Source of the DNA: Candidatus Zixiibacteriota bacterium
GTDB taxonomy: Bacteria > Zixibacteria > MSB-5A5 > GN15 > FEB-12
Reading direction: 5' to 3'
NCBI GenBank assembly: GCA_017999435.1
Contig: JAGNLV010000005.1
Span: 62,001-126,000, forward strand
DNA: 64,000 nucleotides
Shown here: positions 9,364 through 15,398 of the stretch, one piece after another
Position numbering within the stretch: the stretch's first letter is position 1
Layout: each line of letters opens with the position of its first letter
Translations under genes and position numbers: made by a program
Notes under the pieces: model-generated
Database searches by the model: none
The model's input: only the letters and a program-made list of their open reading frames with translations
What the model was told of the DNA's origin: nothing

Positions 9364-10185
9364 CTACTGCTTTATACCGCCGGCAGTTATTCCGGAGACG
9401 ATGTGGCGCTGCAGAAAAATGAAAAGCACGAGGATGGGCACGACCGCAACCGCCGAACCCGCCATGAGGTGCTGCCAATCGATCGCCTGCTGCCCCTGGT
9501 AGTGGGCGAGACCCACCGGAAGGGTGCGCAGCTCCTCCCGCGACACGAGGATGAACGGGAAGAGGAAGGAGTTCCAGTTGGTGAAGAAAGCCTGGATAGC
9601 GAGCACCGCCAGGGCCGGCCGGCAGACGGGCATGACGACGGCGAGCAGGATGCGCAGCTCCCCGGCGCCGTCGATCCGGGCCGCCTCCTCCATCGACGGC
9701 GGGATCGCCTCCACGTACTGCTTGATCAGGAAGATGCCAATCGGATACACCAGCCACGGCAGGACCAGCGCCCAGTACGTGTCGTAGAGGCGGGCCTTGA
9801 GCATGAGCACGTAAAGCGGCACGATGAGAATGTGGGCGGGGATCATGAGAACGACGACGACGGAGGCAAAGAGCACGCGGGTCCAGAGCCCCGGGCGGCG
9901 GGCGAGCACGTAGGCCGCCATGAAGCAGAAGAGGATATTGCCGGCCGTGACCACCAGCGCGACGAAAGCCGAATTGAAGAGGTACCGGCCGATGCGGCCG
10001 GAGGCGAACAGGTCGGCGAAATTGCGGAATGTCACATCGGACGTGAAGAGGTCGGCAAGCCCCACGCCGGCGCCGGGCGACATCACCGCCACCCGGAACA
10101 TCCACACGAGGGGGAACACCATCACCGCCAGGATGACGCCGAGCACCGCGTAGCGGACGGCGGACGCGGCTCTCCGGGCTACCAC
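9364..10185 (-). CDS. Carbohydrate ABC transporter permease (MalG type)
   Basis: A 273-residue inner-membrane protein with six predicted helices and the binding-protein-dependent permease EAA loop, EEAARIDGAGELRILLAVVMPVCRP, which docks the ATPase. It belongs to the MalG/UgpE group of CUT1 sugar importers. It starts with GTG at 10185 and overlaps the end of the MalF-type permease gene by seven bases. The domain order in the operon is binding protein, MalF-type permease, MalG-type permease, the usual CUT1 arrangement. No ATPase gene follows; the next gene downstream is the unrelated OmpA-family lipoprotein. The sugar cannot be predicted. Confidence 0.9.
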   Translation of the reverse strand: MVARRAASAVRYAVLGVILAVMVFPLVWMFRVAVMSPGAGVGLADLFTSDVTFRNFADLFASGRIGRYLFNSAFVALVVTAGNILFCFMAAYVLARRPGLWTRVLFASVVVVLMIPAHILIVPLYVLMLKARLYDTYWALVLPWLVYPIGIFLIKQYVEAIPPSMEEAARIDGAGELRILLAVVMPVCRPALAVLAIQAFFTNWNSFLFPFILVSREELRTLPVGLAHYQGQQAIDWQHLMAGSAVAVVPILVLFIFLQRHIVSGITAGGIKQ

Positions 10186-11048
10186 AGCGGCTGCCTCCGC
10201 CGCAGGAGCGCGAACTGCACCACGGAGAAGACCGCGATGATGAGGAACAGGAGGTAGGCGGCGGCCGAGGCGTAACCGAAGCGGAAGGCGGTGGTCAGCC
10301 CGGCGTCATAGATGAAGTATACCATTGAGGCGGTGTCGAACTTGCCCTTGGTCATGACGAAAATCTCGACGAAGACCTGGAACGACTTGATCGAGTTGAT
10401 GACGACGATGAAGAGCGCGACCGGGCGGAGCAGGGGGAGGGTGATGGAGAAGAACTGGCGCGCGCGGCCGGCCCCCTGGATGCGGGCAGCCTCGTACAAC
10501 TCGTCGGGAATCGACTTCAGGCCGGCGAGAAAGATGAGCATGTAGTACCCGACCGCCATCCAGACATCCATCGCCATGATGGAGGCGAGCGCGGTCTTGT
10601 CGCTGAATAGGAAACCGTGCTCCGGCGCCGGCAGGCCGACCATCGCGGCGAGGGCGGCGATATACCCTCCCCGTTGGTAGAGGTTGGTGAAAATCAGGGC
10701 GACGACAACCATGGAGGTGATCGAGGGAATAAAATAGCCGGCGCGGAAGAGGCCGCGTCCGGGAAACTGCCGGTTCACCAGGAGAGCGAGGCCGAGCGCG
10801 ATGACGGTGGTGACGGGCACGGTCCCGAGGACAAAGATGAAAGTGTTCTCCACCGCGGCGAGGAAGCTCTCGTCGGCCAGCAGGCTCCGGTAATTGGCCA
10901 AGCCAATCCAGCGCCAGGCCGGGGCGAGGAGACGGTAGTCGGTGAACCCCATCACCAGCGAGTACACCAGGGGAAACAGCCAGAACACCGCGAAGCTGAG
11001 AATCCAGGGGGACAGGAGGAGCAGGGCGGTGAGCCGCGAGCGCCTCAT
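10179..11048 (-). CDS. Carbohydrate ABC transporter permease (MalF type)
   Basis: A 289-residue permease beginning MRRSRLTALLLLSPWILSF, with six predicted transmembrane helices and an EAA loop YEAARIQGAGRARQFFSITLPLLRP. This is characteristic of MalF/UgpA subunits that form the translocation channel with a MalG-type partner. The ATG at 11048 overlaps the stop of the binding-protein gene by four bases (ATGA). A longer upstream reading frame is only a shadow of the binding-protein gene. The stop overlaps the start of the MalG-type gene, so all three are coupled. Confidence 0.92.
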   Translation of the reverse strand: MRRSRLTALLLLSPWILSFAVFWLFPLVYSLVMGFTDYRLLAPAWRWIGLANYRSLLADESFLAAVENTFIFVLGTVPVTTVIALGLALLVNRQFPGRGLFRAGYFIPSITSMVVVALIFTNLYQRGGYIAALAAMVGLPAPEHGFLFSDKTALASIMAMDVWMAVGYYMLIFLAGLKSIPDELYEAARIQGAGRARQFFSITLPLLRPVALFIVVINSIKSFQVFVEIFVMTKGKFDTASMVYFIYDAGLTTAFRFGYASAAAYLLFLIIAVFSVVQFALLRRRQPLW

Positions 11049-12256
11049 TTGAGCCCCTTCAACTCCTCGATCTTGTACCGGGCCTCCAGCAGCGGCACGG
11101 CCACCAGGTGCGACCCGAAGAGCGCCTCCTCCACGGCTTTCTCGAGAATGTCCTCGATATAAACCCAGTCGGGATCGACCGGCGGATGCTGGGCGGACTT
11201 GAGGGCTGCGATGAAGGTCTGCAGGTGGGGGTTGGAGGCGAAATAGGGATCCCTTTGGGCCTCGCGGCTCGAGGGGTTGGCCGAACGGTTGGCCCGGCAG
11301 AAACGGACCTGGTTGACCGGGGAGGTGACGAAGCGGATCAGCCTCAGGGCAGCCTCCTTCACGTCGGAGTCGGCGCTCACGGCCAGGAACTCGCCGCCGA
11401 GGAACGAGCGCCCGGGGAATTTCGGGCCGGGGATCAGCGTCGATATCAAGTTGATTCGCCGGTTCTCCAGCTCGATCCGCTTGAGCAGCCAGTCCCCGGA
11501 AATGATGAACCCGATGCGTCCGTCGAGGAAGGCGTCCTCGATACCGCGCTGGGTGTCGACATAGCCGGCGGAGTCGTGCAATTGCTGGTAGGTCCGGAGG
11601 GCACTGACGGCGCGCGAGGAGGCCACCACGCACATCCGGCCGTCATCGGAAAACAACTGGGCGCCTGCCGACCAGAAAAACGGCAGGTACTTCTTATAGA
11701 GGCGGTGCTTTTCGGCCGTGTTGGACCCCCAACCGTAGAAGTTGGGGCCGAGCGCCCGGACTTTCTTCGCCGCCTCCGTCAGTTGCGGCCAGTTGACCGG
11801 GTAGAAGGCAGTGTCGTAGCCGGCGCGGGTGATCAGGTCGCGGTTGCCGAAGAGGACGCGGGTGCCGAGAATCCAGGGCCAGGCATACAGCCCGCCGCGG
11901 TCAGCGGCCATGCTCCAGCCATCGTACCCGGCGGTGTCGCCGGCGACCAGGCCGGAAAGATCGGCGAGCCGCCCGTTGGCGGCGAACTGGGCGATCCAGT
12001 CGGAGCCGAGTTCCACCACGTCCGGGGCCGTGCCCGAGGAGAAAGCCAGGACGATTTTCTCGTGGCCGTTCGCCCAGGTGAGATCGGTCAGGCGCACTTT
12101 GATGTCGGGGTTGGCCTGTTCAAACTCGGCCACCATTTGTTCGATGACCGGTTTGATGGCCGGGTCGGTCCAGAACTGCCACCATTCCACCGTGGCGGCG
12201 CGGGCCGGGCCGGCCAGAAGGAGCGCGGCCGCAAGGATCGTCGCACGTATTCTCAT
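11045..12256 (-). CDS. Extracellular sugar-binding protein of ABC importer
   Basis: A 403-residue family 1 extracellular solute-binding protein. The signal peptide MRIRATILAAALLLAGPARA is cleaved after ARA. The mature protein starts ATVEWWQFWTDPAIKPVIEQMVAEFEQANPDIKV, the standard first lobe of oligosaccharide and glycerol-phosphate binding proteins. Further family signatures are SSGTAPDVVELGSDWIAQFA and GRIGFIISGDWLLKRIE. The protein delivers ligand to the two permeases encoded directly downstream. The ATG at 12256 is preceded by AGAGGTAGGTGG. An earlier in-frame ATG would add 14 non-signal residues and is less likely. It is divergent from the membrane cassette at 12379. Confidence 0.92.
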   Translation of the reverse strand: MRIRATILAAALLLAGPARAATVEWWQFWTDPAIKPVIEQMVAEFEQANPDIKVRLTDLTWANGHEKIVLAFSSGTAPDVVELGSDWIAQFAANGRLADLSGLVAGDTAGYDGWSMAADRGGLYAWPWILGTRVLFGNRDLITRAGYDTAFYPVNWPQLTEAAKKVRALGPNFYGWGSNTAEKHRLYKKYLPFFWSAGAQLFSDDGRMCVVASSRAVSALRTYQQLHDSAGYVDTQRGIEDAFLDGRIGFIISGDWLLKRIELENRRINLISTLIPGPKFPGRSFLGGEFLAVSADSDVKEAALRLIRFVTSPVNQVRFCRANRSANPSSREAQRDPYFASNPHLQTFIAALKSAQHPPVDPDWVYIEDILEKAVEEALFGSHLVAVPLLEARYKIEELKGLK

Positions 12257-12378
12257 CCACCTACCTCTGCATCCAGACACGTCGTCTCGCAGCGGCATGA
12301 AACGGATCGCCGGCGTCCCCGGTCAACCAAAATAATCTTTTAGTTGTTTCGACGCAGGCGGAGGTCTTTCCATGTGCC

Positions 12379-13191
12379 GTGAACATGGCGGCAGTTCCAC
12401 TCATCGCTGCGGCCGCCGATCCGCCCTGGTTCGACGCCTCCACGAGCGTGACCCTGGTGGCGGCGGCGGTCGCCATCGTCATCGTGCTTTATACGACCTA
12501 CCACCGGAAAAGCCGCGCCCGGTACCGGATGCGCGAGATCGCGGGCCTCCGGGCGATCGAGGAGGCGGTGGGGCGGGCCACCGAGATGGCCCGGCCCATT
12601 CTCTACACGCCGGGATGGGGGGGAGACATCCAGCGCCCCACCACCATCGCCTCGCTGAACATCCTCAGCCACGTGGCCGAGAAGGCGGCCCAGTACGACT
12701 GCCGGCTGGTGTTTCCCACCCACGATCCGGTCATCATGGCGGTGGCGCAGGAGGTCATGCGCGAGAGCTGCGCCCGGGCGGGATTTCCCGACCGTTTCCG
12801 CGAAGACAGCGCCTCGTATGTCAGTTCGTCGCAGTTCGGATACGCGGCCGCCGTCGAGGGGCAGATCAGCCGGCTGAAACCGGCCTCGGTGTTCCTCCTG
12901 GGGACGTTCGAGGCCGAGTCACTGATTCTGGCGGAGACGGCCAACATCAACAAGAGCATCCAGATCGCCGGCACCGACTCCACCATCCAACTGGCCTTCT
13001 TCATCGTGGCCTGCGACTACGTTCTGATCGGCGAGGAGCTGTTCGCGGCCTCGGGCTACCTCTCGGAGGATCCCTCCATCATCGCCTCCGTCCGGGCTCA
13101 GGACATTCTGAAGGTGCTCATCGTAGTGCTGCTCATTGCGGCGGTGGTCTGGGCGACCTTCGCCCCGGACAGCACGTGGTGGAGGCTGTAG
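12379..13191 (+). CDS. Membrane cassette protein A: doubly anchored alpha/beta domain, unknown function
   Basis: I do not recognise this family with certainty; it may correspond to an uncharacterised Pfam DUF (possibly DUF6754, unverified). The 270-residue product has one membrane helix near 24-42 (VTLVAAAVAIVIVLYTTYH) and another near 246-262 (KVLIVVLLIAAVVWATF). Between them lies a soluble domain of about 200 residues with the look of an alternating alpha/beta fold. Recognisable stretches are LYTPGWGGDIQRPTTIASL, CRLVFPTHDPVIMAVAQE and LLGTFEAESLILAETAN. The start is GTG 12379 or ATG 12385. The best ribosome-binding site (GGAGG at 12360) is ideally placed for an ATG at 12372 that is out of frame. 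The next gene starts on the base after this stop, so the five-gene cassette begins here. Confidence 0.8.
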   Translation: MNMAAVPLIAAAADPPWFDASTSVTLVAAAVAIVIVLYTTYHRKSRARYRMREIAGLRAIEEAVGRATEMARPILYTPGWGGDIQRPTTIASLNILSHVAEKAAQYDCRLVFPTHDPVIMAVAQEVMRESCARAGFPDRFREDSASYVSSSQFGYAAAVEGQISRLKPASVFLLGTFEAESLILAETANINKSIQIAGTDSTIQLAFFIVACDYVLIGEELFAASGYLSEDPSIIASVRAQDILKVLIVVLLIAAVVWATFAPDSTWWRL

Positions 13192-13818
13192 ATGGGACGG
13201 CGGCTTCCCCAGTTTATCGTGCTGGTGTTCGGCGCAGTCATGTTCCTCCAGTACTTCTCCGATGCGCCGGCGGCCCGGAGCATCAACTCCGCGGTGCTCG
13301 TCGATTACTGGCAGATTATTTTCGCCTTCACGCTGCTGGTGGGGGTGGTGAGTTATGTGCGGACGGCCACGGCCGGGATTGGACGCGCGGCCGATTGGCC
13401 CTACCGCGCGGTGTCGCTGGCGGGCGTCGCGCTCATGCCGGTGCTGGCGGTTTTGTGGGGAATCCGGGCCGAGTCCCCCTTCATGTGGGTCTTTGAGAAT
13501 GTCCAGGTGCCTATGCAGGCGACTGTGTTTGCGCTCCTTGCGTTTTTCGTCGCCTCGGCCTCGTACCGCGGGTTCCGGGCGCGATCGGCGCCGGCGGCTG
13601 TGCTCCTGGCGGCCGCGTTCCTGACGATTCTCACCCGCTCGGCGCTCGGGGATTGGTACCCCGACTGGGTGAACCGGGTCGCTGAGTGGGTGCGCGATGT
13701 ACCCTCGATGGCGGCGCGGCGGGCGATTCTCATCGGCATCGGCCTCGGGTCGCTCACCACCTCGCTGCGCGTGATTCTGGGGATCGAACGCACCTGGCTG
13801 GGGAGAGGCGGAAGATGA
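13192..13818 (+). CDS. Membrane cassette protein B: six-helix membrane protein, unknown function
   Basis: A 208-residue integral membrane protein with about six hydrophobic helices: near residues 7-23, 36-57, 73-90, 103-125, 132-150 and 178-198. No catalytic motif is evident and I do not recognise the family. It starts with ATG immediately after the stop of gene A (TAG ATG) and its stop overlaps the start of gene C by four bases (ATGA). This strict coupling suggests that the products are made in fixed ratio and assemble together. The loop around FENVQVPMQATVFALLAFFV and the C-terminal GLGSLTTSLRVILGIERTW are candidate conserved stretches to use in searches. Confidence 0.8.
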   Translation: MGRRLPQFIVLVFGAVMFLQYFSDAPAARSINSAVLVDYWQIIFAFTLLVGVVSYVRTATAGIGRAADWPYRAVSLAGVALMPVLAVLWGIRAESPFMWVFENVQVPMQATVFALLAFFVASASYRGFRARSAPAAVLLAAAFLTILTRSALGDWYPDWVNRVAEWVRDVPSMAARRAILIGIGLGSLTTSLRVILGIERTWLGRGGR

Positions 13819-14630
13819 AGCTGGAATCGCGCCACTGGATCTTCCTCGGTCTCGGGGCGGCCGTGGTCGCGGCCATGGCGCTGCAGGTCAATCTGCAGGT
13901 GCCGGCCTCCGACGATACGCTCGGGATGCACCGGTTCATCGAGGAGGTGCCGGCCGGGTCGACGATCATCGTGTCGTTCGACCACGAGGCCTCCTCGCTC
14001 CCGGAAATCCGGCCCCTGGCGCTGGCGGTGCTCCGGCATGCCTTCTCGCGCAACCTGAAGATTGTCGGCACCGCCCTACTGGCCGAGGGGACGGGGGTCG
14101 GCTACCGCCTGGTGCAGCAGACGGCCCGGGAGTATGACAAGCGCTACGGCGAGGACTGGGTGTACCTCGGGTTCAAGCCGCAGTATATCGCGGCGATTCT
14201 CTCGATGGGGGAGTCGTTCGCGAAGACCTGGCCGGAGGATTACCTCGGGCGGCCGTATACGGACCTTCCGATGCTGGCGGAGATCGAGACCTATGGTCAG
14301 ATCGCCGGAGTCGTGTCGGTGGCCGACGGGTCGCTGACGACCCACTGGATCGAGTACGCGGCCAGCCGCTACCGCGTGCGGGTGGCGGCGGCGGTGACGG
14401 CCGCGATGGTGACCACCTATGATCCGTACCTGGCCTCGGGGCAATTGCAGGCCATGGTCGGCGGGCTGCGCGGGGCGGCCGAGTACGAACAGCTCATCGC
14501 GCGCGGTGGCGGGGGAGAGCGGGGGATGCTGGCCCAGACGGTCTCGCACCTCTACGTGGTCGCGCTCATCGTCGTCGGGAACCTTGTCTTCTTTGCGACC
14601 CGGCGGCGGGAGAAAGGAGGGGGCGGCTGA
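13815..14630 (+). CDS. Membrane cassette protein C: doubly anchored soluble domain, unknown function
   Basis: A 271-residue protein with an N-terminal signal anchor (about 7-25, WIFLGLGAAVVAAMALQV) and a C-terminal membrane helix (about 243-261, LYVVALIVVGNLVFF) followed by the basic tail RRREKGGGG. The roughly 210-residue segment between them looks alpha/beta: GSTIIVSFDHEASSLPEIRPL, NLKIVGTALLAEGTG, GQIAGVVSVADGS. This anchor-domain-anchor layout mirrors cassette protein A, and both domains end in a stretch rich in Ala, Tyr and Gly before the last helix. No known family is recognised. The ATG at 13815 overlaps the stop of gene B, and the stop overlaps the start of gene D (TGATG). Confidence 0.8.
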   Translation: MKLESRHWIFLGLGAAVVAAMALQVNLQVPASDDTLGMHRFIEEVPAGSTIIVSFDHEASSLPEIRPLALAVLRHAFSRNLKIVGTALLAEGTGVGYRLVQQTAREYDKRYGEDWVYLGFKPQYIAAILSMGESFAKTWPEDYLGRPYTDLPMLAEIETYGQIAGVVSVADGSLTTHWIEYAASRYRVRVAAAVTAAMVTTYDPYLASGQLQAMVGGLRGAAEYEQLIARGGGGERGMLAQTVSHLYVVALIVVGNLVFFATRRREKGGGG

Positions 14631-15244
14631 TGGATTGGGGCACGGCGGTCGCGGGCGCGCTCACGCTGGCGATCCTGAGTTTCCTGTACCGCGACAATCC
14701 GGTCTACCGGATGGCGGAGTCGCTTTTGATCGGGGTGGCGATCGGGTACTTCCTCGTGATCACGTGGACCAACACGCTCATGGACCTGCTCGTGCGGCCG
14801 CTGTTCGGGGACGGGCGGCTCGGCCTGATCGCGCCGCTCGTGTTCGGGCTGCTCATGTTCGGGCGGTTCCACCCGAGCACCAAATCCTGGTCGCGGCTGT
14901 CGATGGCGGTGCTGATCGGCTCCGGAGCGGGCGTGGCCATACCCGTGATGCTCGAGGCCCGGACGCTCAAGCAGATGTCGGCCACGGTGATGCCGCTGGT
15001 CGGCCCGACCGGGATGCCCAACTGGTCGGCGATCGTGGTCATGGTCGGAGTCGTGACCACCCTCTCGTATTTCTATTTCAGCCGGGAACACAAAGGGGCG
15101 CTGGGGCGGTCGGCGAAGATCGGGGTGTACTTCCTGATGATCTTCTTCGGGACCACCTTCGGCTACACGGTCATGTCGCGGATGTCGACGTTTATCGGGC
15201 GGGTGGAATTCCTCCTCAGCGACTTCCTCCGCCTGACCAGCTGA
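14630..15244 (+). CDS. Membrane cassette protein D: six-helix membrane protein, unknown function
   Basis: A 204-residue integral membrane protein with about six helices: near 4-20, 27-46, 63-79, 88-105, 128-147 and 162-181. It shows no recognised motif. The loop FGRFHPSTKSWSRLSM and the segment TVMPLVGPTGMPNWSAI stand out as polar and probably functional. Its ATG shares a base with the stop of gene C (TGATG), so it is translated by coupling. The alternation of two six-helix proteins (B, D) with two anchored soluble proteins (A, C) suggests a single membrane complex. Topology and partners are inference. Confidence 0.8.
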   Translation: MDWGTAVAGALTLAILSFLYRDNPVYRMAESLLIGVAIGYFLVITWTNTLMDLLVRPLFGDGRLGLIAPLVFGLLMFGRFHPSTKSWSRLSMAVLIGSGAGVAIPVMLEARTLKQMSATVMPLVGPTGMPNWSAIVVMVGVVTTLSYFYFSREHKGALGRSAKIGVYFLMIFFGTTFGYTVMSRMSTFIGRVEFLLSDFLRLTS

Positions 15245-15254
15245 CGGGGGCCGG

Positions 15255-15398
15255 ATGCGCTGTCCCCGCTGCCAGGCGACGATGAAGGAACTGAAACGGA
15301 CGTTCCACAAGCAGCGCAAGTGGGTGTGTCCAAAGTGCGGACGTGTGCGCTTCCAGCGGCGGCCGGCCGACCGCCGGCCTCCCTCCGGCGACCGCTGA
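15255..15398 (+). CDS. 47-residue zinc-ribbon protein
   Basis: A very short gene starting at an ATG ten bases after the stop of cassette gene D. The product begins MRCPRCQATMKE and contains a second knuckle, WVCPKCGRVRF. Cys3/Cys6 and Cys25/Cys28 make a CxxC-x18-CxxC zinc ribbon. Many Lys and Arg residues and a basic Pro/Arg-rich tail suggest contact with nucleic acid or with a ribosomal or transcription complex. The frame is in phase with the cassette spacing, and the cysteine pattern is very unlikely to arise by chance. Function is unknown; it may be a regulator or assembly factor of the cassette, or an unrelated passenger. Confidence 0.7.
   Translation: MRCPRCQATMKELKRTFHKQRKWVCPKCGRVRFQRRPADRRPPSGDR

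Follow-up and report, generated by a model that had tools for sequence, protein, structure and literature searches.

A conserved DUF6754 membrane gene cassette of Zixibacteria and its co-inheritance with a GlmL-like ATPase and a barrel-sandwich protein

The DNA analysed here is a stretch of 64,000 nucleotides from Candidatus Zixiibacteriota bacterium, the whole of which we call the window and whose positions are the coordinates given for the cassette that is our subject. Positions 12379-15398 are occupied by five real, co-directional genes on the + strand, lettered A to E, and the open reading frames recovered are those of a preliminary description of the locus, with the same coordinates and the same lengths of 270, 208, 271, 204 and 47 residues. 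Gene A (12379..13191, GTG start, 270 residues) is followed by gene B (13192..13818, 208 residues), gene C (13815..14630, 271 residues), gene D (14630..15244, 204 residues) and gene E (15255..15398, 47 residues). The TAG of A is followed immediately, at zero gap, by the ATG of B; B and C share a 4-base overlap (ATGA) and C and D a 1-base overlap (TGATG), and a spacer of 10 bases precedes E. These junctions, which had been reported before, are read directly in the sequence and are kept in most relatives. The start of A is ambiguous, being either the GTG at 12379 or an ATG at 12385 (region 12359-12385), and a good ribosome-binding site sits nearer to an out-of-frame ATG at 12372 than to the A starts.

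Gene A encodes a full-length member of the Pfam family DUF6754 (PF20539), matched with E 2.2e-92 and 309 bits, against a cut-off of 27, over profile positions 4-249 of 257. DUF6754 is a family of unknown function, and its Pfam entry covers A alone: the operon context, B to D, and the partner genes c0 and c1 described below lie outside its description. B, C and D match no family, and their non-redundant homologues (105 for B, 99 for C and 84 for D) give scattered weak matches only, while E, with its two CxxC pairs, gives weak zinc-ribbon matches. The earlier proposal that no established family is represented thus holds for B, C, D and all of their family members, but not for A; similarly, to call the cassette undescribed was nearly right, in that DUF6754 is not mentioned in the literature that we searched (a limited collection), and the literature on the lineage is likewise silent on the cassette, but A already has its Pfam entry. 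Searches of A to E with Pfam and PADLOC turned up nothing that marks a known system of secretion, respiration, transport or defence, in line with the absence of secretion, respiratory and transport markers remarked upon before. An anti-phage defence role was rejected, as PADLOC gave 0 matches for A to E, c0 and c1 at E 0.01.

Family-averaged hydropathy and AlphaFold2 models agree with the initial description of two six-helix proteins and two soluble domains anchored at both ends: B and D each have six helices, and A and C each comprise a soluble domain between two anchoring helices. AlphaFold2 was run on A with B, as the A-TAG-B segment of the window, and on C with D, as the C-TAA-D segment of an orthologous locus (L040), with the in-frame stop translated through. 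This read-through is a device to fold two proteins together and carries no claim of biological read-through; the junction residues of the fused models are of low confidence and the models are not evidence of an interface. The A+B model reached a predicted local distance difference test score (pLDDT) of 82.9 and a predicted template modelling score (pTM) of 0.78, with domain blocks mostly at pLDDT >90, and the C+D model a pLDDT of 86.0 and a pTM of 0.76, with the soluble domain of C mostly at pLDDT >93. The domains of A and of C are both predicted to be Rossmann-like, having six strands that alternate with helices and an anchoring helix at either end. Charge bias across the families places the A domain in the cytoplasm and the C domain outside, with the termini of B inside (105 homologues) and those of D outside (84 homologues). 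In B, a cluster of arginines (R126, R129 and R131) is conserved among the 105 homologues at the cytoplasmic end of the fourth transmembrane helix.

The fold of A raises the possibility that A to D form a membrane enzyme, in which B and D would hold a lipid-linked or membrane substrate, and the Rossmann-like A domain would bind a nucleotide-type cofactor and act on that substrate. The best Foldseek match of A is to a molybdenum-cofactor carrier protein (probability 0.99, template modelling score (target) 0.50, E 0.03, which is not significant), and A has many invariant polar residues, as such an enzyme might. However, Foldseek against the PDB found nothing at E <=0.001 for the A+B or the C+D model, the latter giving generic Rossmann matches only, and a sequence search of the PDB found no relative for A (E up to 1), B or D, and chance-level matches for C. 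Conservation is not concentrated on the ligand edge of the fold, A differs from molybdenum-cofactor carrier and LOG-type Rossmann proteins in being anchored in the membrane at both ends, and the outer domain of C would be left unexplained, so that we regard an enzyme as distinctly unlikely.

Evidence that these genes form a unit comes from their recurrence. Among sets with enough downstream sequence, and including that of the window, A-B-C-D were contiguous, in order and on the same strand in 109/120: 61/64 in Zixibacteria, 28/31 in WOR-3, 19/24 in Planctomycetota and 1/1 in a metagenome-assembled genome (MAG) labelled 'Deltaproteobacteria'. In relatives, junctions overlap or have zero gap at A/B in 57/86, at B/C in 54/79 and at C/D in 52/74, and the commonest gap at these three junctions, in loci from public genomes, is -1 or -4 bases. 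As homologous sets keep the same order in so many loci, with junctions mostly overlapping or at zero gap, the arrangement is not due to chance; the genes do not each resolve into a separate known family, nor in most sets do they lie apart. E, by contrast, stands at the end of 43 of the 61 complete sets from Zixibacteria and of the one set from 'Deltaproteobacteria'; other subtypes lack it, among them the remaining four copies in the host genome. The unit, first presented as a five-gene cassette, is therefore better stated as a four-gene core, A to D, with E as an optional fifth gene confined to the subtype of the window. That A to D make up one membrane assembly, as originally argued from their strict coupling, gains support but not proof from the gene order, the coupling and the recurrence in several phyla. 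The cassette is a real, conserved and uncharacterised membrane system.

DUF6754 is present in all 118 sampled genomes of the Zixibacteria phylum (118/118) and in 94/100 of the phylum of a WOR-3 MAG, usually in several copies in both; it was also found in 61/246 Planctomycetota genomes, in 1/247 of the phylum that holds the 'Deltaproteobacteria' MAG, and in 0/14 control genomes. The phylum labels of these samples were deduced from the MAG around which each sample was centred, and a 'Latescibacterota' MAG (of locus L085) belongs to the same sample as the WOR-3 MAG. In a tree of A domains several old subtypes cross phyla; the copy in the window falls in a well-supported Zixibacteria clade, and the 'Deltaproteobacteria' sequence lies inside the wider group.

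Two partner genes outside the window, c0 and c1, lie upstream of the cassette in many Planctomycetota loci and in some WOR-3 and Zixibacteria loci. The c0 product, of about 376 residues, has weak matches to biotin/lipoyl, RnfC-type (RnfC_N) barrel-sandwich and KOW domains. The c1 product, of about 600 residues, belongs to the MutL/GlmL family and matches the whole PF13941 profile (E 6e-128, 427.8 bits against a cut-off of 27); it differs from the named members in scoring under the equivalog cut-offs for GlmL (methylaspartate mutase accessory protein; NCBIfam; 237.9 against 475 bits) and ornithine Or-4 (209.6 against 600 bits), and in its setting beside c0 and DUF6754 genes. The literature searched on GlmL offered nothing useful for GlmL function. 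Of 246 Planctomycetota genomes, 58 carry c0, divided as 55/61 with A and 3/185 without (Fisher p 4e-44, not corrected for genome relatedness), and c0 lies within 2.5 kb of A in 36 of the 55, being farther off or on another contig in the others. Using a threshold of E <1e-200, which we chose to split this clade from the broad MutL family, and matching the c1 and DUF6754 genome lists by hand, we found c1 in 59 Planctomycetota genomes, of which 56 are A-positive (56/61), and in many it adjoins c0 and the cassette. The c0-positive and c1-positive genomes that have no DUF6754 match are the same three (G178, G192 and G277). Elsewhere, c0 is present in 59/60 Zixibacteria and 94/100 WOR-3 genomes, and 3 of the 6 WOR-3 genomes without DUF6754 are also without c0. 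Co-inheritance of the cassette with c1 and c0, which are often adjacent to it, is new in this analysis, and the conserved unit and its partners are well supported. The functional unit of the preliminary description, then, holds in that A to D go together, but its limits reach past the genes of the window to c1 and c0 elsewhere in the genome.

More distant homologues of c1 and c0, in the Zixibacteria, WOR-3 and Planctomycetota samples, are fused in proteins of 820-960 residues or encoded by adjacent, overlapping genes. The fusions, of a MutL/GlmL-like ATPase with a c0-like barrel-sandwich domain, include those at L179 1686-4559, L180 2563-5355, L181 3468-6308, L182 3763-6612 and L183 4278-6749. 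Near c1, in several Planctomycetota loci and in one locus of the Zixibacteria phylum (L133, L144, L171 and others), there recurs a small gene that resembles a third partner (c2, about 130-150 residues, no Pfam family).

With c0 included, the set can be compared to the ion-pumping redox complexes Rnf and Nqr, which also have an oppositely oriented six-helix pair, an outer anchored domain and a barrel-sandwich partner. A to D and c0 could then be a distant complex of this type, with B and D as the six-helix pair, C as an outer flavin subunit and c0 as the barrel-sandwich subunit, in keeping with the opposite orientations of B and D and the weak RnfC_N match of c0. Against this, neither B, D nor their 105 and 84 family members have any Rnf/Nqr Pfam match, and no flavin or iron-sulphur domain was found. 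The invariant and near-invariant columns of B, C, D and c0 include no conserved cysteines, and B, C and D show neither conserved cysteine clusters nor pairs of heme-type ligands, which disfavours a redox role. We therefore rejected redox and Rnf-type readings, for want of homology to Rnf-Nqr membrane subunits and of conserved cysteines for iron-sulphur centres, and consider such a pump extremely improbable.

The host genome, which is Zixibacteria-like and has Candidatus Zixiibacteriota MAGs as its closest relatives, has five DUF6754 genes, belonging to the set of the window, to three tandem A-B-C-D sets (L086 8284-17171, - strand) and to one further single set. The host c1 (L086 17417-19267) and c0 (L184 1076-2200), at about 163.4-167.2 kb of C1, adjoin the triple cassette. 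The A proteins of the triple cassette have long N-terminal extensions, one of which has a near-threshold fibronectin type III match.

Such variable extracytoplasmic extensions of paralogous A proteins, the several paralogues per genome and the single soluble domain on either face of the membrane would suit a membrane signalling or regulatory complex, in which C would sense the outside, B and D would relay the signal and A would report to c0/c1 or to another partner; the DUF4388 gene and other uncharacterised genes that come after one subtype in WOR-3 might be taken the same way. Yet A to D contain no kinase, GGDEF, helix-turn-helix or other output domain, A is, at a mean column identity of 49%, the most conserved subunit and in this resembles the core part of a machine, and presence of the system is near-universal and in multiple copies. 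Signalling thus seems to us unlikely.

We propose instead that A to D form one inner-membrane 'DUF6754 complex', powered or controlled by the c0/c1 module, which moves or assembles envelope material, and to this reading as a whole we give a probability of roughly 0.4; the role of the A to D assembly is probably that of an envelope transport or assembly machine. B and D would form the membrane core, in opposite orientations, flanked by the Rossmann-like domains of A on the cytoplasmic face and of C on the outer face. The cytosolic pair would consist of c1, as a GlmL/MutL-like ATPase of ASKHA type, and c0, as a barrel-sandwich/KOW protein; c1 would hydrolyse ATP and, via c0, drive or gate A and the membrane core, by which envelope material might be moved or assembled. 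Substrates or partners outside could be met by C and by the N-terminal extensions that paralogous A proteins carry on the extracytoplasmic side, and paralogous copies may serve different substrates, the copy in the window, with its zinc ribbon and its divergent sugar transporter neighbour, being one such specialisation. We infer the mutual binding of A to D, their contact with c0/c1, the coupling to ATP, the output in transport or assembly and the existence of a substrate.

Several observations weigh against this proposal. Nothing in the analysis indicates a substrate; a conserved ligand-binding edge in the fold of A or C was tested for and was unsupported, conservation not being focused there; and in the profiles of B and D, inspected by eye, no charged residue was identified that is conserved deep in the membrane and would point to ion coupling. 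In five Planctomycetota loci (L136, L139, L142, L143 and L146) A lies apart from B-C-D, although each of these genomes has D at another place; c0 lies near A in all five. The co-inheritance counts and the Fisher p make no correction for relatedness among genomes, and the characterised relatives of c1 are accessory proteins of B12-dependent mutases, so that c0/c1 could act on something else.

Envelope motors of the ExbB/ExbD-TolQR type are a further comparison: genes of this kind (named by eye) share clusters with the cassette in some Planctomycetota and WOR-3. B and D, however, are not recognisable homologues of them, nor was an acidic residue seen to be conserved deep in the membrane.

A more specific form of the DUF6754 complex, which we offer tentatively and consider unlikely, is an ATP-energised membrane machine of a class not known before, built of two matching halves in opposite membrane orientation, A+B facing inside and C+D facing outside, each made of a Rossmann-like anchored domain and a six-helix protein, and driven by the GlmL-like ATPase with a barrel-sandwich adaptor; it would then belong to the core envelope systems of Zixibacteria and WOR-3. 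Homology of A with C, or of B with D, was not supported at the sequence level, hhalign giving scores no better than those of reversed-sequence controls. The idea of two halves, which is unproven, is kept alive by the matching order of secondary structure in the A and C models, by helices of similar length in B and D, and by the opposite orientations.

We regard the system as new, in that its parts are shared by no known system, a judgement that rests on the absence of matches and on a limited literature and which a later structural match could lower. A four-gene system in all sampled genomes of one phylum and nearly all of another, in up to seven copies, represents an unnamed core function. 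Through its link to the cassette, the group of GlmL-like ATPases, which is poorly understood, also acquires a possible role beyond B12-dependent mutases. Among the sampled Planctomycetota, some carriers have one cassette in a single-contig-scale genome of 6-8 Mb, and if a cultured strain is among them gene removal might be possible.

Upstream of the cassette in the window, a short divergent intergenic region (12299..12378) is common to A and to a sugar-type ATP-binding cassette (ABC) transporter on the - strand (9364-12298, named by eye), which comprises a solute-binding protein (11045-12298) and two permeases; no ATP-binding subunit lies directly beside it. This divergent neighbour is kept in 62 Zixibacteria loci with a median gap of 127 bases, as might be expected if the cassette were an accessory of the adjoining transporter in sugar uptake. 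The neighbour is, however, absent from other subtypes in the same genome, from WOR-3 and from Planctomycetota, and so cannot define the function of the family, and its synteny may reflect vertical inheritance; we consider the accessory role very unlikely, and as a family-wide role it was rejected. Downstream of cassettes of the type in the window there is often a DUF72 gene, an ABC transporter and a D-Ala-D-Ala carboxypeptidase-like gene (names by eye). As other subtypes have other neighbours, this neighbourhood is a feature of the subtype. In WOR-3 (L153, L157 and L159), a DUF4388 gene and then more small uncharacterised genes come after one DUF6754 subtype, and beyond this stretch in L153 and L159 lie ExbB/ExbD-like genes, also named by eye.

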